The notes beneath the pieces are model-generated. The model made no database searches, was not told where the DNA came from, and was given only the letters and a program-made list of their open reading frames with translations. Shown here one piece after another: positions 52,941 to 64,000 of a stretch of 64,000 nt of DNA. This DNA comes from Methylocystis sp. L43 (GTDB taxonomy: Bacteria; Pseudomonadota; Alphaproteobacteria; Rhizobiales; Beijerinckiaceae): positions 1 through 64,000 of the forward strand of contig NZ_JADNRA010000015.1 of assembly GCF_015709525.1 (NCBI RefSeq). Direction: 5' to 3'. The first letter of the stretch is position 1; each line of letters opens with the position of its first letter. The position numbers and the translations under genes were made by a program.

Positions 52941-55394
52941 TTGAACGCTTTTGATCCGCCCAAGGCCGCCCATAAGGCCGTCGTCGCCGCGCTGCGCGAC
53001 GACGTGCAGCGGCGTCTCACTTATACGGTCGGCAAGGACAACGCCGACGCAAGTCCGCGCGACTGGTTCGTCGCGACCGCGCTTGCGACCCGCGATCGGC
53101 TCGTTCCTTCTTGGCTCGCTTCGACGAAGCGCAATTATCAGGAAGACCGGCGGCGCGTTTATTATCTCTCTCTCGAATTTCTCATTGGCCGTCTGCTCAT
53201 CGACACGCTGACGAATCTTGGCCTGACCCAGGCGATGCGCGACGCGCTCGCCGAACTTGGCGTCGATCTCGATATGCTGCGCGCGCTGGAGCCCGATGCG
53301 GCGCTCGGCAATGGCGGGCTCGGGCGCCTCGCCGCCTGTTTCATGGACAGCATGGCGACTCTCGAAATCGCCGCCATGGGATATGGCATTCGCTACGACC
53401 ACGGGCTGTTTCGCCAGACGCTCAAGGACGGCTGGCAGCACGAATATCCCGAAGACTGGCTCTCCTTCGGCAATTCCTGGCAGTTCCCGCGGCCGGAAAT
53501 CACCTATGACGTCGGCTTTTTCGGCCATGTTGAAAGTTCGCGCCTCGCCGACGGCATGCTGGCGCATGTGTGGCGGCCGGGCGAGACCATCGTCGCCGTC
53601 GCCTATGACACGCCTGTCGTCGGGTGGCGCGGCAAACATGTCAACACGCTGCGGCTGTGGTCGGCGAGAGCGCCTGACGCGCTGCGCCTCGACGCCTTCA
53701 ACCAGGGCGATCATGTGGGCGCGCAATCGGAGCAGGCGCGCGCCGAAGCGATCTCCAAAGTTCTTTATCCAAGCGACTCGACGCCCGCGGGACAGGAGCT
53801 GCGGCTGCGGCAGGAATATTTCTTCGCCTCGGCCTCGCTGCAGGATCTGATCCGCCGTCACCTGAGGCAGACCGGCGACATCCACAGGCTTGCCGACAAG
53901 GTGGCGATACAGCTCAACGACACGCATCCGGCGATCGGCGTCGCCGAGCTGATGCGGCTTCTCGTCGACGTCCACGGCGTTGAATGGAAGGAGGCCTGGC
54001 GCATCACCCAGGCGACCTTCTCTTACACCAATCACACGCTTTTGCCGGAAGCGCTCGAAACCTGGCCGGTGCAGCTGATGGAGCGGCTGCTGCCACGCCA
54101 CATGCAGATCATCTATCTCATCAACGCCATGCACCTCGACTGCCTGCGCGCCAAGGGCGCGAGCGACGCGGCGACGCTCTCCTCCGTGTCGCTCATCGAC
54201 GAGCATAACGGACGGCATGTGCGTATGGGCCATCTGGCGTTTCTGGGTTCGCACAAGGTGAATGGCGTCTCGGCGCTGCATAGCGCGCTGGTCAAGGAGA
54301 CGGTGTTCAAGGATTTCCACCGGCTCTACCCCGACCGCATCGTCAACAAGACCAACGGCGTCACCTTCCGCCGCTGGCTACTCGAGGCCAATCCGCCGCT
54401 GTCGCGATTGCTCGCCGACACGATTGGCGCTGGCGTTTTCGATGAGCCGGAGCGACTGATCGAGCTTGAGAAATTCGCCGACGACGCCGAGTTCCAGAAC
54501 CGATTTGCGGCGGCCAAGCGCGAAAACAAGGCGCGCCTTGCGACGACGATCTTCGAGCGCGTCGGCGTCAGAGTCGATCCTGCCGCACTCTTCGACGCGC
54601 AGATCAAGCGCATTCACGAATATAAGCGCCAGCTTTTGAACGTGCTTGAAGCCGTCGCGCTCTATCAGGACATCGTCGCGCAGCCCGCCCGCGAATTTGC
54701 GCCGCGGGTGAAGATCTTCGCCGGCAAGGCGGCGGCGAGCTATCATCAGGCGAAGCTCATCATCAAGCTCGCGAACGATGTGGCGAAGGTCGTGAACGCC
54801 GATCCGGCGACGCGCGAGCTTTTGAAGATCGTGTTCCTGCCGAATTACAATGTGAGCCTCGCCGAGACGATCATTCCGGCGGCTGATCTTTCCGAGCAGA
54901 TTTCGACCGCCGGCATGGAGGCGTCCGGCACCGGCAATATGAAATTCGCGCTCAACGGCGCGCTCACCATCGGCACGCTTGACGGCGCCAATGTCGAAAT
55001 CAGGGAGCGCGTCGGCGACGACAATATCTTCATCTTCGGCCTCACGGCGCAGGAGGTCGAGCAGAGCCGTGCGAAGGGCATCGACGCGCGCGAGACCATC
55101 GCCGCGAGTCCCCGTCTCGCCGAGGCGCTGCGGGCCATCGCCGCCGGCGTCTTTTCGCCCGACGATCCGCATCGCTATGCGCAGCTTGTCGATACGCTGA
55201 CCTATTACGATCACTTTCTGGTCGCGAAGGACTTCGACGCCTATTGGGAGGCGCAGCGCCGCGTCGACGCGCGCTGGCGGGACCAGAAAGCATGGCGGCG
55301 GTCGAGCATTCTCAACACGGCGCGTGTTGCATGGTTTTCCTCCGACCGCACGATCCGCGAATATGCGGAAGAGATCTGGAATGTCGCCGTGTGA
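52941..55394 (+). CDS. glgP: Glycogen/alpha-glucan phosphorylase
   Basis: This 817-residue PLP enzyme releases glucose 1-phosphate from glycogen non-reducing ends. Family blocks are YYLSLEFLIGRLLIDTLTNL, GNGGLGRLAACFMDSMATLE and RIHEYKRQLLNVLEAVALY. The PLP lysine is K668 in ASGTGNMKFALNGALTIGTL. The TTG start at 52941 has AAAGGA 5 bases upstream, the same arrangement as the pdxH start. It is first gene of the glycogen cluster; a palindromic repeat separates it from glgB. Confidence 0.96.
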   Translation: MNAFDPPKAAHKAVVAALRDDVQRRLTYTVGKDNADASPRDWFVATALATRDRLVPSWLASTKRNYQEDRRRVYYLSLEFLIGRLLIDTLTNLGLTQAMRDALAELGVDLDMLRALEPDAALGNGGLGRLAACFMDSMATLEIAAMGYGIRYDHGLFRQTLKDGWQHEYPEDWLSFGNSWQFPRPEITYDVGFFGHVESSRLADGMLAHVWRPGETIVAVAYDTPVVGWRGKHVNTLRLWSARAPDALRLDAFNQGDHVGAQSEQARAEAISKVLYPSDSTPAGQELRLRQEYFFASASLQDLIRRHLRQTGDIHRLADKVAIQLNDTHPAIGVAELMRLLVDVHGVEWKEAWRITQATFSYTNHTLLPEALETWPVQLMERLLPRHMQIIYLINAMHLDCLRAKGASDAATLSSVSLIDEHNGRHVRMGHLAFLGSHKVNGVSALHSALVKETVFKDFHRLYPDRIVNKTNGVTFRRWLLEANPPLSRLLADTIGAGVFDEPERLIELEKFADDAEFQNRFAAAKRENKARLATTIFERVGVRVDPAALFDAQIKRIHEYKRQLLNVLEAVALYQDIVAQPAREFAPRVKIFAGKAAASYHQAKLIIKLANDVAKVVNADPATRELLKIVFLPNYNVSLAETIIPAADLSEQISTAGMEASGTGNMKFALNGALTIGTLDGANVEIRERVGDDNIFIFGLTAQEVEQSRAKGIDARETIAASPRLAEALRAIAAGVFSPDDPHRYAQLVDTLTYYDHFLVAKDFDAYWEAQRRVDARWRDQKAWRRSSILNTARVAWFSSDRTIREYAEEIWNVAV

Positions 55395-55485: not shown

Positions 55486-55507
55486 ATGCTGCTTCAAGGA
55501 CGTGAGA

Positions 55508-57715
55508 GTGACAAAAGCCGACTGGCGCGCTTCCGCGGACGACATCGACGCCATCCTCGGCGCGCGCCATGGCGATCCCTTCGCCGTGCTCGGCCTGCAT
55601 GAAACGCCCGCGGGCTATGTCATACGCGCGTTCGTTCCGGGCGCGACGCGAGTGGAGGCGGTTGCGCCCGACGGCGCCATGACCGCGCCGCTGGGTCGCG
55701 TTCACGCCGACGGCTTCTTCGAAGGGCTGACGACGTTGAAGGGGCGCGCGCGCTACCGCCTTGTCGCCTCGAACGACGCGGCGCGATGGGAATTCGCCGA
55801 CCCTTACGCCTTTTCCCCGGTGCTCGGTCCCACAGACGATCATCTGCTCGTCGAAGGCGCGCATCAGAAGCTCTATGACAAGCTCGGCGCGCATGTGCTG
55901 ACGCATGAGGGCGTCGAAGGAACGCATTTCGCCGTCTGGGCGCCGAACGCCAGACGCGTCTCCGTCGTCGGCGACTTCAACCAATGGGACGGCCGCCGTG
56001 CGCAGATGCGCAAGCGGATCGACAGCGGCGTCTGGGAAATCTTCGTTCCCGGCGTCGGGGCGGGCGCGAATTACAAATATGAAATCATCGGGCGGCATGG
56101 CGAGCTCTTGCCGCTCAAAGCCGACCCGCTCGGCTTCGAGGCGGAGCTGCGCCCCTCGACGGCGTCCGTCGTCGCCTCGAACGCGCCCTATCACTGGGGC
56201 GACGAGAGTCACATGCGCGCGCGCGCTGAAGTCGACCCGCGACGTTCGCCCATGTCGGTCTATGAAGTGCATCTGCCGTCGTGGCGACGCGGCGAAAACG
56301 GACGCTTCCTGACCTACGATGAGCTTGCCGATCAGCTCGTGCCCTATGTCGCCGATCTCGGCTTCACCCATATCGAGCTGATGCCGATCAACGAGCATCC
56401 GCTCGACGCCTCCTGGGGCTATCAGCCGATCGGGCTCTTTGCGCCGACGCGGCGGCATGGCGATTCCTATGGCTTTCGCCGCTTCGTCGATCGCGCGCAT
56501 CAGGCGGGCCTCAGCGTCATTCTCGACTGGGTTCCGGCGCATTTTCCGACCGATGAACATGGCCTCGCGCAATTCGACGGCGGGCCGCTCTTTGAGCATT
56601 CTGATCCCAAGCGCGGTTTTCATCCCGACTGGAACACCGCGATCTATGATTATGGGCGTCGCGAAGTGGCGAATTTTCTCATCGCCAGCGCGCTCTATTG
56701 GCTTGATCGCTTCCACATCGACGGGTTGCGCGTCGACGCCGTCGCCTCCATGCTCTATCTCGACTATTCGCGAAAGCCGGGCGAATGGTCGCCCAATCCC
56801 GACGGCTCCAACGACAATCGCGACGCCGTCGCCTTTCTTCAAAGGTTCAATGAACGCGTCTACGCGCTTTATCCGGGCGTCGTGACGATCGCAGAAGAAT
56901 CCACCGCCTGGGGCGGCGTGACGCGGCCGACATATGCCGGCGGCCTCGGCTTCGGCTTCAAATGGAACATGGGGTGGATGAACGATACGCTGCGCTATCT
57001 TTCGTCCGAACCCGTCCATCGCAAATGGCGCCATAGCGAGCTGACCTTCGGCCTGCTCTACGCCTTCACCGAAAACTTCGTGTTGCCGATCTCTCATGAC
57101 GAGGTCGTGCACGGCAAGGGCGCGGTCGTCGGCAAGATTCCCGGCGACGAATGGCGCCGCTTCGCGACCGCCCGCGCCTATTACGGATTCATGTGGGGCC
57201 ACCCCGGCAAGAAGCTTCTGTTTATGGGCCAGGAATTCGGCCAGACGAATGAATGGAATTTCGCGAGCAGCCTCGACTGGTGGTTGCTCGATTTTCCCCC
57301 GCATCGGGGGCTTCAGGCGTTTATCCGCGATCTCAACCGCGTCTATCGCGATCACGAGGCGCTCTATGCGCGCGACTGCGAGGCCGAAGGCTTCCAGTGG
57401 ATCGTCGCGGACGACGCGGAGAGTTCGGTATTCGCCTTCGCGCGTTTTGGCGCGGATCGCTCCCGCGCGATCGTCGTCGTCACGAATTTCACGCCGGTGA
57501 CGCGCAGCGCCTATAGGCTTGGCTTGCCGCGCGCCGGACGCTGGCGTGAACTCGTCAATTCCGACGCTGCGGTTTATGGCGGCTCTGGACTTGGCAATCT
57601 CGGCGCCATTCATGCGCGCGCCGAAGCGTTCCGCGACTTTCCCGCGAGCGCCGAGATTCTTCTGCCGCCGCTTTCGACTCTCTTCTTCGCATTCGAAAGC
57701 GATGCTCTACAATAA
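55508..57715 (+). CDS. glgB: 1,4-alpha-glucan branching enzyme
   Basis: This 735-residue GH13 enzyme cuts alpha-1,4 chains and re-attaches them by alpha-1,6 links. It has an N-terminal CBM48-like region ([12 protein letters not shown]), a second CBM48 ([20 protein letters not shown]) and a catalytic barrel with D410 ([10 protein letters not shown]), E463 (TIAEEST) and D531 (ISHDEVVHG), matching D405/E458/D526 of E. coli. The GTG at 55508 is 7 bases from AAGGA; an earlier GTG at 55502 is too close. It is followed 35 bases later by glgC. Confidence 0.96.
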
Positions 57716-57750: not shown

Positions 57751-59013
57751 ATGTCCGCCTTTGAAAATCCGCCCCTGGCGCGCCACGCCATGGCCTATGT
57801 CCTTGCCGGCGGCCGCGGCGCGCGGCTGATGGAATTGACCGACAGGCGCGCCAAGCCCGCAGTTTATTTCGGCGGCAAGTCGCGCATCATCGACTTCGCG
57901 CTCTCCAATGCGCTCAACTCCGGCATCAGGCGCATTTGCGTTGCGACGCAGTACAAGGCGCATAGCCTCATCCGCCATTTGCAGCGCGGCTGGAGCTTCT
58001 TTCGCACCGAACGCAACGAGAGCTTCGATATTCTGCCGGCGAGCCAGCGCGTGTCTGAAGACCACTGGTATCTCGGCACGGCGGACGCCGTCTATCAGAA
58101 CCTCGACATCGTCGAGAGCTATGATCCCAAATATATCGTGCTGCTCGCGGGCGATCACGTCTACAAGATGGATTACGAGCCCATGCTGCAGCAGCATGTG
58201 GATTCCGGCGCCGACGTGACGATTGGCTGTTTCGAGGCGCCGCGCGCAGAGGCGTCCGGCTTCGGCGTCATGCATGTCGACGAAAACGACCGCATCATCT
58301 CCTTCATCGAAAAGCCGCGCGATCCGCCGGCAATGCCGGGACATCCGGACCGTGCGCTCGTCAGCATGGGCATCTATGTTTTCGAGGCGAAGTTTCTCTA
58401 CGAGCAATTGCGCCGCGACGCCGCTGAGACGCTCTCGACGCATGATTTCGGCAAGGATTTGATCCCCTACATCGTCTCGCATGGCAAAGCCGTCGCGCAT
58501 CATTTCGAGCGCTCCTGCGTGCGCGCGGCAAGCGAGCCCAACGCCTATTGGCGTGACGTCGGCACGGTCGACGCCTATTGGGCGGCCAATATCGATCTCA
58601 CCGATTTCACGCCGCAGCTCGATCTTTACGATCGCAACTGGCCGATCTGGACATATGCCGAAATCACCCCGCCGGCGAAATTCGTGCATGATCAGGTCGG
58701 ACGGCGCGGACAGGCGCTGTCCTCGCTCGTCTCGGGCGGCTGTATCGTTTCCGGCTCGACGCTGCGCCGAACGCTGCTCTTTACCGGCGTGCGCGTGAAT
58801 TCCTACGCGACCGTCGAGAACGCCGTCGTCCTGCCCTATGTCGACGTCGGCCGCTCGGCGCGGCTCACCAACGTCGTCGTCGACCGCGGCGTGCAGATCC
58901 CGCAGGGCCTCGTCGTCGGGGAGGACCCGGCGTTCGACGCCGCGCGTTTCCGCCGAACAGAGGGCGGGATCTGTCTCATCACCCAGCCGATGATCGACAG
59001 GCTCTGTGCATGA
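57751..59013 (+). CDS. glgC: Glucose-1-phosphate adenylyltransferase
   Basis: This 420-residue enzyme makes ADP-glucose, the committed step of bacterial glycogen synthesis. It has the nucleotide-binding loop [20 protein letters not shown], substrate blocks [16 protein letters not shown] [16 protein letters not shown] and [24 protein letters not shown], and a C-terminal left-handed beta-helix. It is the main allosteric control point in the family. Its stop overlaps the glgA start by four bases, so the two are translationally coupled. Confidence 0.97.
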
Positions 59014-60467
59014 GTGCGCTGCGCGCGCTCGCCATCGCTTCGGAGATGGCGCCCTTCGTCAAGACCGGCGGGCTCGCCGATGTCGTCGGCGCGCTGCCCC
59101 ATGCGCTCGCCGCTGAAAACATCGAGCTGCGCACGCTGATCCCCGGCTATCCCGACGTAATCGCCACGCTGGGCGCGGGCGAAACGGTTCTTGAGTTCGA
59201 CGACCTCTTTGGCGGTCCGGCCTGGATCCACGCGGCGCGCCATAACGGACTCGCGATTTATGCGCTCATCGCGCCGCATCTTTATGCGCGCGAAGGCGGG
59301 CTCTACACGGGACCGGACGGCGCCGATTATTCCGACAACGCCTTCCGCTTCGCGGCGCTCGCCTGGGCCGGCGCGCAGATCGGGCTCGGCGCGCTCGATG
59401 GATTTACGCCCGATGTCGTGCATGCGCATGACTGGCAGGCGGCGCTCGCGCCGGCCTATATGCATTATGCAGAGCGGCCGCGGCCGGCGACGATCGTCAG
59501 CATCCACAACATCGCGTTCCAGGGGCAGTTTTCCAAGGAGCTGCTCGAGCCGCTGCGACTGCCGCCCCGCGCGTTCGATATCGATGGCGTCGAATATTAC
59601 GGCGCGATCGGTTTCCTGAAGGCTGGCCTGCAACTCGCCGACCGCATCACCACGGTGTCGCCAAGCTATGCGCGCGAGATCGAGACGCCGGAATTCGGCA
59701 TGGGCCTCGAGGGCCTGTTGCGCGCGCGCGCGGATTGCGTGAGCGGCATATTGAACGGCGTCGATGAAGAGACGTGGGATCCCGCGACCGACGCGCATCT
59801 TGGTACGCGCTATGATCATTGGAGCCTGCCGTCGCGCGCCAGGAACAAGGCGGCTTTGCAGAAACGTCTGCGACTGCGCGTCGACCCCGACGCCTTTCTC
59901 CTCGGCGTCGTCAGCCGGCTGTCGTGGCAGAAGGGGCTCGACCTGCTGCTCGACGTTTTGCCGCAGTTCATGCGCGGACGCGCGCAACTCGCGCTGCTCG
60001 GCGCTGGAGATAAAGCGCTGGAGGAAGGATTTGTCGCTGCAGAAGCCGCGCATCCCGGCCGAGTGGGCGTTCATATCGGCTATAGCGAAGAGCTTGCGCA
60101 TATGATCCAGGCGGGCGCCGACGCGTTCCTCGTTCCGTCGCGCTTCGAGCCATGCGGACTGACGCAGCTTTATGCGCTCCGTTATGGCGCCGTGCCGATC
60201 GTTTCGCGCGTCGGCGGGCTGAAAGATACGATCGTCGACGCCAATGAAATGGCGCTGCAGGCCGACGTCGCCACCGGCCTGCAATTTTCGCCAACGACCG
60301 CCGAGGCGCTCGCCCTCGCCTTGCGTGAAGCCGAACGTTTGTTCGAGGACGCCGAGACGTGGCGCAAGATTCAGGTCAACGGCATGAGAACGGACGTCTC
60401 CTGGCGCAATCCGGCGCGCCGCTACGCGAAGCTCTTTCGGGACGCGGCCGCCGCGAGGGTTGGGTGA
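59010..60467 (+). CDS. glgA: Glycogen synthase (ADP-glucose type)
   Basis: This 485-residue GT5 enzyme has the ADP-glucose-binding motif [13 protein letters not shown] (K18), the acceptor region [31 protein letters not shown], the second-domain [11 protein letters not shown] block and the C-terminal [18 protein letters not shown], where the Glu is catalytic. It extends alpha-1,4 chains. The ATG overlaps the glgC stop. A palindromic intergenic element separates it from the following GlgX-MalQ fusion gene. Confidence 0.97.
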
Positions 60468-60483
60468 CTGTTTCGGCGATAAA

Positions 60484-60620
60484 GCCCCCTCCCTGTCCCT
60501 CCCCCGCTTGCGCGGGAGAGGGAACCCTAGCGATCGGCATAGCGCGCGATGTGCGACATGCGCCGCGTCTGCCCCCCTCTTCCGCAAGCGAAGCGCAGCG
60601 GGGGAGGGATGGGGAGGGGG
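60484..60620. repeat. Paired palindromic element between glgA and the glgX-malQ gene
   Basis: The first palindrome is CCTCCCCCGC-TTGC-GCGGGAGAGG, near 60498-60521. A second, less perfect GGGGGAGGGATGGGGAGG-rich arm runs up to 60620. It is a diverged relative of the 7459-7596 element. The right arm provides the purine-rich ribosome site of the next gene. Confidence 0.6.
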
Positions 60621-60621
60621 C

Positions 60622-63600
60622 ATGACCGGCCGCCTCGCCGACGGAACTCCAGAACCGCTTGGCGTCACGCCGGACGCGAGCGGCGCGAATGTCGCGGTGT
60701 TTTCCGCTCACGCCGAGGCGATCGAGATCTGTCTCTTCGATGACGCCGACGAAGAGATCGCCCGCATAAAATTGCCGGCGCGCAGCGGCGACGTCTTTCA
60801 TGGCTATATTGAGGGCCTCACAGAAGGCCAGCGCTATGGCTTTCGCGCCTATGGACCCGATGCGCCGGAGGCGGGCCATCGCTTTAATCCGGCGAAGCTG
60901 CTCGTCGATCCTTACGCGCTCGCGCTCGATCGCGTCTTCACGCTGCATCCTTCGCTATTCGCTTATGGCGACGCCGCGAACGCCGACAGCGCCGCGCATC
61001 TGCCGAAAGCGATCGTCACGAAGCCAGTCCCTGCCGAGTCGCTGCGGCCAAAGCATCCCTGGCGCGATACGATCATCTACGAGCTTCACGTCAAGGGTTT
61101 CACCGCGACCCATCCCGACATCCCGCAACATCTGCGCGGGACCTTCGCCGGTCTCGCGCATGACGCGGGAATCGCGCATCTGACGCGGCTCGGCGTGACG
61201 ACGCTGGAGCTTTTGCCCTGCGCGGCGTGGCTCGACGAGCGTCACCTGCCGCCGCTCGGGCTTTCCAATTACTGGGGCTACAATCCGATCGCCATGATGG
61301 CGCCCGACCCGCGTCTCGCGCCGGGCGGCTGGCGTGAAGTTCGCGAAGCCGTCGACAGACTTCACGGGGCCGGGCTCGAAGTCATTCTCGACGTCGTCTT
61401 CAACCATACCGGCGAAAGCGACGAATTCGGGCCGACCGTCTCGTTCCGAGGATTGGACAACGCCAGCTATTACCGGCTTGCCGACGACGGCGCGCGTTAC
61501 GTCAATGACTCGGCCTGCGGCAATATTCTCGATTGCGGGCGCGCGCCTGTCGTGCGGCTCATCATGGATGCGCTGCGCGCCTGGGCGGTCTATGGCGGCG
61601 TCGATGGCTTTCGCTTCGATCTCGCGACGACGCTCGCGCGTCGCCCTTCGGGATTCGATCGCGACGCGCCATTGCTTTCGGCGCTTCGGCAAGACCCGAT
61701 GCTGCGCGATTTAAAGCTCATCGCCGAGCCCTGGGACATGGGCCCAGGCGGCTATCGGCTCGGCGACTTTCCCGAGCCTTTCGCCGAATGGAACGATCGC
61801 TATCGCGACAGCGCGCGCGGTTTCTGGCGCGGCGACTCCTGCGGCGTCGCCGAACTCGCGACGCGATTCGCCGGCTCGCAGGACGTGTTTGCGCGCAGGT
61901 GCCCCTCACGCAGCGTCAATTTCATTACGGCGCATGACGGCTTCACTTTGCGCGATCTTGTCTCCTACGCGCATAAGCACAATGAAGCGAATGGCGAAGA
62001 GAACCGCGACGGCGCCGACCACAATCTTTCCTGGAACAATGGCGCCGAAGGCGAGAGCGAAGACGCCGCGATCCATGCGGCGCGGGCGCGGGATGCGCGC
62101 AATCTGCTCGCCACGCTCATTTTCTCTCGCGGAACCCCGATGCTGGCCATGGGCGCGGAGTTGGGTAAGACGCAGTCCGGCAACAACAACGCCTATGCGC
62201 AGGACAACGCCCTCTCATGGATTGATTGGGCGCGCGCCGACGATGGACTGATCGAGACGACGGCGAAGCTCATCGCGCTGCGCAAGCGACACTTGGCCTT
62301 GCGCGAGGATCGCTTTCTCGACGGCGCGCCGCGTGACGCTTCGCTTATCCCCGATGTCGAATGGTTGCGTCCCGACGGCGCGCCGATGCGCGAAGACGAC
62401 TGGCGCGACGGCGAGGCGCAAACGCTTGTCGTCGCGTTTTATGCCGAAGACGATCGCGTCATCGTCATTCTGCATCGCGGCGCTGGCGAGATTATCGTGC
62501 GCCCGCTGCCCGCTCGCGACAATCACGGCTGGAAATTGGCGTTCAATTCGGCGAAGGACGGCGCGGACGAAGACATTGAAGGAAGCATTTCCGTCGCGCC
62601 GCGCTCCGTCGCGCTTCTCGTCGAGGAAAGGCGCGCATCGCGCCGGTCTATTGCGCCTGCTTCGGAAGACATCCTCTCGCGTCTCGCCGAGGCGACCGGT
62701 GTTGAACGACAATGGCGAGATGTGGAAGGCGCGCTGCACGACGTTCCGCGCGAGACGGTCTGCGCGCTGCTGGCGCAGCTCGGCTTTCCGGCCGGAACGC
62801 TCGATGAGGCCCGCGAGAGTCTCGCGCGTCTTTCAGACTTTCGCGACAGACGCACGTTGCCGGCGAGCCTTTCGGCGCAGGAGGGCAAGTCCTTCACGCT
62901 TCGGCTCGCCGCGCGCAACGGACGCACGCCGAGCTGGATCGTCGTCACGCAGGAAGACGGAAGCTGTTCGCGCATCGCCCTTCGTGGGGAGAACGCCACG
63001 CCGCTCACATGGCGCGGACTCGACGGGCGCCGCTGCGACGGCGTCGAAGCGCGAATGCCGCCGATGCCTGCCGGTCGTCATCATTTGTCGCTCGACAGCG
63101 TCGACTGTGCGCTCACCGTCGCGCCGCCGGGCTGTTATCTGCCTCACGACGCGGCCCCCGCATTCGGCCTGTCGGCGCAGCTGTATTCCGTTCGCCGCGA
63201 CGGCGATCAGGGAATCGGCGACTTCTCGACGCTTACCGAACTCACGCGCGCCGGCGCCAAAGCCGGCGCCGCGCTTATCGCGATCAATCCGCTGCACGCC
63301 TTGTTTGCGCAAGATCGCACGCGCGTCAGTCCGTATTATCCGTCCGACCGGCGGTTCCTCGATCCGCTCTATATTGATGTCTCCGGATTGGGGCGCATGC
63401 TCGGCGCGCCGATTGATTTCGACGAGAAGACCGCTGCGGGTCTCAGCGGCGCCACGGATGTCGACTATCCCGGCGTTCATGCGCTGAAGATGGTGGCGCT
63501 CGAACGCGCCTTCGCCATCTTCCTTGATCTGTCGCGCCGCCAGCCTGACGCCGCGCCCGCCGCATCGTTCCAGCGCTTCATTGCACAAGGCGGGGCGGCG

Positions 63601-64000
63601 CTTGACCGCTTCTGCTTGTTCGCGGCGATCAGCGAGGCGCGCAACGGCCAAAGCTGGCGGATGTGGCCGCAAGAGCTGCGCGAAGGACGCGCCGCGGCGT
63701 TGACCGCCTTCGCGAGCGAACATGCAACGTGCGTCCAATTTCACCAATTTCTGCAATGGCTCGCCGATGCGCAATTTGCGCATGCGGCGCAGGATGCGCG
63801 CGCCGCCGGTCTGTCGCGCGGCTTCTGCCGCGACCTCGCCATCGGCGCGGCGCCCGACGGCGCCGAGAGCTGGAGCCGCGCGGGCAGTTTCGTCGAGGGT
63901 TTTTCGATCGGCGCGCCGCCCGACGCGTTCAGTCGCGAAGGCCAGAACTGGGGATTGCCGCCGCCAAATCCAATCGAGATGGAGAAAAGCGGCGGCGCCG
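60622..64000 (+). CDS. GlgX-MalQ fusion: glycogen debranching enzyme joined to 4-alpha-glucanotransferase (3' end outside window)
   Basis: One frame stays open for all 1126 codons visible here and runs off the window. Residues 1-670 are a GlgX-type GH13_11 debranching enzyme: CBM48 (GVTPDASGANVAVFSAHAEA), LDVVFNHTGE, D333 (GVDGFRFD), E369 (LIAEPWD) and D439 (TAHDGFTLRDL). Residues about 685 onward are a GH77 MalQ-type domain: LSAQLYSVRRDGDQGIGDF, INPLHALF, PYYPSDRRFLDPLYIDVS and GQNWGLPPPNP. Its three catalytic acids would lie past the window end. I checked every line in frame: no stop separates the two domains. ATG at 60622 follows a GGGAGGGGG ribosome site. Confidence 0.9.
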   Translation, partial: MTGRLADGTPEPLGVTPDASGANVAVFSAHAEAIEICLFDDADEEIARIKLPARSGDVFHGYIEGLTEGQRYGFRAYGPDAPEAGHRFNPAKLLVDPYALALDRVFTLHPSLFAYGDAANADSAAHLPKAIVTKPVPAESLRPKHPWRDTIIYELHVKGFTATHPDIPQHLRGTFAGLAHDAGIAHLTRLGVTTLELLPCAAWLDERHLPPLGLSNYWGYNPIAMMAPDPRLAPGGWREVREAVDRLHGAGLEVILDVVFNHTGESDEFGPTVSFRGLDNASYYRLADDGARYVNDSACGNILDCGRAPVVRLIMDALRAWAVYGGVDGFRFDLATTLARRPSGFDRDAPLLSALRQDPMLRDLKLIAEPWDMGPGGYRLGDFPEPFAEWNDRYRDSARGFWRGDSCGVAELATRFAGSQDVFARRCPSRSVNFITAHDGFTLRDLVSYAHKHNEANGEENRDGADHNLSWNNGAEGESEDAAIHAARARDARNLLATLIFSRGTPMLAMGAELGKTQSGNNNAYAQDNALSWIDWARADDGLIETTAKLIALRKRHLALREDRFLDGAPRDASLIPDVEWLRPDGAPMREDDWRDGEAQTLVVAFYAEDDRVIVILHRGAGEIIVRPLPARDNHGWKLAFNSAKDGADEDIEGSISVAPRSVALLVEERRASRRSIAPASEDILSRLAEATGVERQWRDVEGALHDVPRETVCALLAQLGFPAGTLDEARESLARLSDFRDRRTLPASLSAQEGKSFTLRLAARNGRTPSWIVVTQEDGSCSRIALRGENATPLTWRGLDGRRCDGVEARMPPMPAGRHHLSLDSVDCALTVAPPGCYLPHDAAPAFGLSAQLYSVRRDGDQGIGDFSTLTELTRAGAKAGAALIAINPLHALFAQDRTRVSPYYPSDRRFLDPLYIDVSGLGRMLGAPIDFDEKTAAGLSGATDVDYPGVHALKMVALERAFAIFLDLSRRQPDAAPAASFQRFIAQGGAALDRFCLFAAISEARNGQSWRMWPQELREGRAAALTAFASEHATCVQFHQFLQWLADAQFAHAAQDARAAGLSRGFCRDLAIGAAPDGAESWSRAGSFVEGFSIGAPPDAFSREGQNWGLPPPNPIEMEKSGGA

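Follow-up and report, generated by a model that had tools for sequence, protein, structure and literature searches.

A GlgX–MalQ fusion gene of a known kind follows the glycogen genes of Methylocystis sp. L43 and is predicted to encode a bifunctional glycogen-breakdown enzyme

In E. coli, GlgX (structure 2wsk) and MalQ (4s3p) are separate proteins, with which the two halves of the protein described here, and their catalytic triads, can be aligned. According to PMC11046441, phosphorylase halts short of the branch points and GlgX takes off the short stubs; phosphorylases are said there to be inactive on chains of fewer than five residues, and MalQ lengthens the short glucans freed by GlgX to chains on which phosphorylase can work. 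The same text also states that in some bacteria GlgP can fully degrade linear maltodextrins and that the P. furiosus phosphorylase acts down to maltose, and since some phosphorylases degrade short maltodextrins, MalQ need not be required. Another MalQ fusion of glycogen metabolism mentioned in that source is the GlgB–MalQ protein of Neisseria, in which MalQ is N-terminal and its partner is the branching enzyme, whereas at the locus studied here MalQ is C-terminal and its partner is GlgX. The N-terminal part of a further long model, NF011077 (PRK14507; malto-oligosyltrehalose synthase), is MalQ-like too, but there it precedes a different enzyme instead of following GlgX.

The first-pass annotation of our locus had left it undecided whether GlgX–MalQ fusions had been described before. 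The combination of GlgX and GH77 domains is present in databases already: NCBIfam holds two models so named, NF011082 and NF011083 (PRK14510; bifunctional glycogen debranching protein GlgX/4-alpha-glucanotransferase). As some deposited relatives bear the fusion name as well, this kind of fusion is already known by name. In the titles and abstract openings of the open PMC literature we found no description of an assayed GlgX–MalQ fusion, and no paper on PRK14510.

The window, i.e. the whole stretch of DNA analysed, comprises the first 64,000 nucleotides of contig C14 (74,961 bases; G000:C14:1-64000) in a genome of 4.06 Mb. The frame starting with the ATG at 60622, which had been read as open up to the end of the window, is indeed free of stops through 64000. 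When the contig was read beyond the window, the stop was found at C14:64837-64839, giving a protein of 1405 residues. Profile matches agreed with the earlier description of a complete GlgX, a short linker and a GH77 domain in one chain, and Pfam recovered CBM48, GH13 and GH77 on the full protein. The features are collected in Table 1.

Table 1. Glycogen genes of the window and the parts of the fusion gene
Feature	Coordinates	Strand	Basis or remark
glgP, phosphorylase	52941..55394	+	genome's sole match to phosphorylase model
glgB, branching enzyme	55502..57715	+	
glgC, glucose-1-phosphate adenylyltransferase	57751..59013	+	
glgA, glycogen synthase	59010..60467	+	
glgX-malQ fusion gene	60622..64000 in window; whole gene G000:C14 60622-64839	+	open-frame reading, 1405 aa
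GlgX half, residues 1-667: CBM48, GH13 barrel, C-terminal beta domain	60622..62622	+	TIGR02100, PF02922, 7u39/2wsk alignments
Joining stretch, residues 668-682	62623..62667	+	edges of two profile matches; predicted model
MalQ half, residues 683-1405	62668..64000, continuing beyond window	+	NF008274, TIGR00217, PF02446, 4s3p alignment, fold match

In several alphaproteobacterial genomes glgX and malQ are adjoining separate genes, some of them in the same frame with an intervening stop (e.g. L062 and L063), and a sequencing or assembly error might have erased such a stop here. Against this, the junction (62580-62760) was compared with independent assemblies and the same open frame was seen in 23 further family genomes among the matches listed. 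Because these genomes carry the identical unbroken arrangement, assembly error was ruled out, and we give this explanation next to no chance. Full-length fusions were present in 24 of the 149 family genomes, our own included (among the matches listed), all 24 as a single open frame, and the junction was also crossed by shortened matches in G066, G025, G002 and G131 (family search, matches listed). A database search with residues 560-860, in which 7994 candidates sharing most words were scored, gave at least 93 proteins, 79 of which measure 1340-1475 aa, a length that likewise speaks for a genuine fusion; a few span part of the query only, e.g. P0079, a GlgX of 772 aa.

Within our own genus, five of the six genomes have the fusion; in the sixth, G057, it was absent among the matches listed and GH77 was also not found. 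Wider surveys (again among the matches listed) gave 3 carriers of the fusion in the 337 genomes of the class, namely G000, G471 and G392, and 10 in the 398 genomes of the phylum, own and G017 counted. Named carriers among the best 80 of at least 593 matches include Methylocella silvestris TVC, Falsiroseomonas tokyonensis, F. stagni, an Acidocella MAG and a Magnetococcales MAG. Apparent further fusions in families f39, f51, f73 and f106 were rejected as separate adjoining genes whose supposed open frames had read through stops, and so was G295/L062, where a single match row held a stop.

The GlgX half matched TIGR02100 over residues 8-667 (model positions 2-687 of 688) with 840.6 bits, above the curated cut-off of 640.9, which places it in the GlgX family. 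It also aligned to structures 7u39 and 2wsk, D333 lying opposite residue 336 of 2wsk, which we take to be a catalytic residue of E. coli GlgX. The GH13 Asp/Glu/Asp triad had been assigned to D333, E369 and D439, and correctly so: it is invariant in all 18 proteins of an alignment of database proteins with our own fusion protein, and equally so in the fused genomic rows (34 of 34). These genomic triad counts, like those given below, cover the fused rows of the first locus set, eight later-fetched fused loci lying outside it.

Similarly, the MalQ half exceeded the curated cut-offs of TIGR00217 (malQ; 341.3 bits against 205.65) and PF02446 (370.6 bits against 25), as expected of a MalQ / GH77 protein. 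NF008274, the model of long E. coli-type MalQ, was matched over residues 683-1377 (positions 4-687 of 695) with 501 bits, which misses its cut-off of 806, and the score against NF011077 was higher (624 bits, positions 4-723 of 1693). With the sequence extended past 64000, the GH77 Asp/Glu/Asp triad was located at D1145, E1193 and D1244, all beyond the window. In the alignment with 4s3p (E. coli MalQ), D1145 stands opposite residue 448, presumably a catalytic residue. The triad is kept in 17 of the 18 aligned proteins and in all 35 fused genomic rows. The exception, the database fusion P0089, fails to align at the triad in its C-terminal part and is possibly a frameshifted record. We also noticed that the Pfam GH77 match of the fused proteins G123:C1 and G033:C23 falls into two pieces, with some 30-35 profile positions skipped and the triads kept.

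A model predicted for residues 545-1405 had a mean pLDDT of 85.8, and its best match among solved structures was E. coli MalQ, with a TM-score of 0.89 (target length) or 0.71 (query length). In this model about 11 residues lie between the strand that closes GlgX (662-670) and the helix that opens MalQ (682-692), and confidence in the linker is moderate (blocks of pLDDT 76 and 80).

The protein as a whole shares both domains and their order with NF011082: positions 7-1407 of 1410 correspond to residues 6-1378, a full-length GlgX-then-MalQ match, while the match to NF011083 is restricted to part of the MalQ half. The score of 1741.8 bits against NF011082 lies below the curated cut-off of 2511, so that formally the protein stands outside the equivalog model while having the same architecture. 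The great height of this cut-off above the score of a full-length fusion may explain why relatives are often named after one half only (GlgX, or 4-alpha-glucanotransferase). Among the matches listed, the nearest named proteins are from the methane-oxidising genus Methylocystis; NCBI calls most of the named close Methylocystis relatives GlgX only, and some relatives carry the deposited name 'glycogen debranching enzyme GlgX/4-alpha-glucanotransferase'. Automatic naming thus tends to mask one of the two activities of the fusion.

The first-pass annotation had drawn a parallel to the eukaryotic debranching enzyme AGL/GDB with the order of the halves reversed. The likeness is that a single chain carries, here by prediction, both a transferase activity and one that cleaves alpha-1,6 bonds, and in that respect, as in the reversed order, the parallel stood. 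As described in PMC4837477, however, GDE has a GH13-like transferase at the N-terminus and a GH15-like glucosidase at the C-terminus, and transfer precedes hydrolysis. In our protein the order by Pfam, NCBIfam and fold comparison is GlgX and then GH77, and the stub would be released whole by the GlgX half before the GH77 half disproportionates it. The domain families differ, so that membership of the AGL family was ruled out on the domain layout given in that source; the reactions would also run in the opposite order, and the parallel is an analogy only. Since the kind is named in NCBIfam and GDE is a different solution, our finding soundly describes a genuine protein of known kind. What is modestly new is a second group of same-order fusions, and relatives with a MalQ-less GlgX inside the fusion group.

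We then considered what the gene may do. Judged from its domains and triads, its product is very probably a single bifunctional enzyme that takes part in glycogen breakdown and combines debranching with the recycling of short chains. GlgP would trim the outer chains down to stubs, and the GlgX half would hydrolyse the alpha-1,6 bond, so that the stub comes off as a short maltodextrin. Such short chains would be disproportionated by the MalQ half into longer chains and glucose or maltose, and the lengthened chains could go back to the single phosphorylase for further attack. We infer both activities from the families, and likewise any flow of substrate from one half to the other and any kinetic advantage of a single chain.

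Next, the enzyme complement of the genome was examined. The fusion is the one GH77 protein found, no second GlgX was seen (full matches, among the matches listed), and no TreY scored above the cut-off. The Pfam alpha-amylase model matched two proteins, GlgB and the fusion; as this model matches the known GlgX half weakly, the statement that there is no further GH13 protein leans partly on the other searches. With a single match to the phosphorylase model, a single GH77 protein and two alpha-amylase proteins, debranching and glucanotransfer both seem to depend on the fusion alone. One gene thus appears to supply both debranching and chain recycling, and no back-up for either was found in this genome.

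The fused GH77 was likewise the sole GH77 in all 26 fusion genomes checked (our own, six others, in two of which the match is split into two parts within one frame, and a further nineteen). On the other hand, a GlgX that was scored as bare occurs in 16 related genomes, of which nine have a separate GH77 and seven have none; in G038 and G106, two of the 16, GlgX leaves its contig and its C-terminal end is thus unseen. MalQ therefore seems dispensable in some relatives. The seven genomes would agree with a genuine fusion in which one half has lost its catalytic activity and acts as a binding module, an alternative that we nevertheless consider very improbable: the triads of both halves are intact in every fused genomic row counted above, and no second GH77 was found in the 26 fusion genomes.

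The bifunctional reading is compatible with two views of why the halves are joined. Channelling between them is plausible and, if true, would make the protein a bacterial counterpart of the eukaryotic debranching enzyme by function and not by descent. The halves may also work independently, the fusion just fixing a one-to-one ratio; this alternative, which concerns channelling only and leaves bifunctionality untouched, we regard as fairly probable. It agrees with the short linker and the moderate confidence of the model there, with the relatives that have separate neighbouring genes, and with the loss of the MalQ half in places, while same-order fusions in two groups separated in the trees hint at a gain from linkage.

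To follow the history of the fusion, quick trees were built (LG+G4, with SH-aLRT support only). The locus set had score floors of 250 bits for GlgX and 150 bits for MalQ, weaker matches being left out together with those of fewer than 500 aligned residues and the copies of our own locus (L001, L004 and L024). The first GlgX tree used 96 of 151 GlgX rows, and in the later MalQ trees L037 was swapped for a fuller copy, L168. By their MalQ halves, the alphaproteobacterial fusions formed one group (34 rows, support 100; 36 rows in a wider tree, support 100), and judged from this grouping the fusion is inherited. A branch of support 96 places these halves close to MalQ proteins that are greatly extended at the C-terminus and are probably MalQ-TreY proteins; the 'TreY' label in the tree was judged from the size of the extension and likened to NF011077. 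Within the family of our genome, a C-terminal extension of more than 500 residues was seen in twelve MalQ proteins (L043-L048 and L050-L055).

In the later GlgX tree the alphaproteobacterial fused halves formed one group of 43 rows (support 100) together with 18 rows scored as unfused. Three of these 18 end at a contig edge (L029, L040 and L057), L057 being the front piece of the split fusion of G131. The bare GlgX proteins of the g33 genomes G100, G143 and G071 (L030, L031 and L032) grouped in the first GlgX tree with the fused GlgX of G123 and G033 (support 100), and MalQ is encoded elsewhere in these three genomes (L164, L165 and L166) and comes from another MalQ group, in contrast to the fusion genomes with their sole, fused GH77. 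A bare GlgX inside the fusion group together with a MalQ of a different group elsewhere reads as loss of the MalQ half, with its role passing to the other MalQ.

A second group of fusions with the same order was formed by the Magnetococcales MAG (L086) and six genomes of families f179, f182 and f185 (L194-L199) of the same phylum, the MalQ half of G498 being identical to that of L086. The MalQ nearest to this group, L200 (f182), is a separate gene beside glgX. The group was apart from the alphaproteobacterial one in both the MalQ and the GlgX trees (support 84 in the later GlgX tree), and these separate positions suggest two origins of the fusion. In AU tests, a single origin of all fusions was not rejected for either the MalQ half (p 0.214; 24 of 90 rows left out) or the GlgX half (p 0.254; 12 of 105 rows left out, with the constraint set chosen after the first GlgX tree had been seen), and therefore two origins remain a suggestion. 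A further-reaching and rather doubtful proposal would be that the same-order fusion arose at least twice, in Alphaproteobacteria and in the group including Magnetococcales, the reason being that a linked MalQ site can catch maltodextrins on their release at the GlgX site; the outcome would be a bacterial debranch-and-recycle enzyme by a route unlike that of the eukaryotic GDE.

Finally, we looked at the surroundings of the gene. The order glgP, glgB, glgC, glgA reported upstream was borne out, all four genes pointing the same way as the fusion gene, and its place in the glycogen operon is thereby supported; the genes on the 3' side (an M23 peptidase, an S41 peptidase, ccmC and dsbE) have no relation to glycogen. 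An upstream glgA was seen at 24 of 35 fused loci. For nine of the other eleven only about 1.5 kb of upstream DNA was covered; one locus with this coverage, L021, shares its MalQ half with L081, and there 3 kb of upstream DNA does contain glgA. The remaining two are L056, which begins at a contig edge, and L086, which has glgB upstream. A palindromic repeat of about 143 bp (window 60480-60622) takes up most of the interval from glgA to the fusion gene and abuts the ATG of the latter, and the purine-rich stretch before this start codon is provided by the end of the repeat. The repeat has a strong predicted fold (z -6.4) and gave 48 match rows in its own genome, both strands and partial rows counted; similar DNA was also seen in 14 Azospirillum plasmid records.
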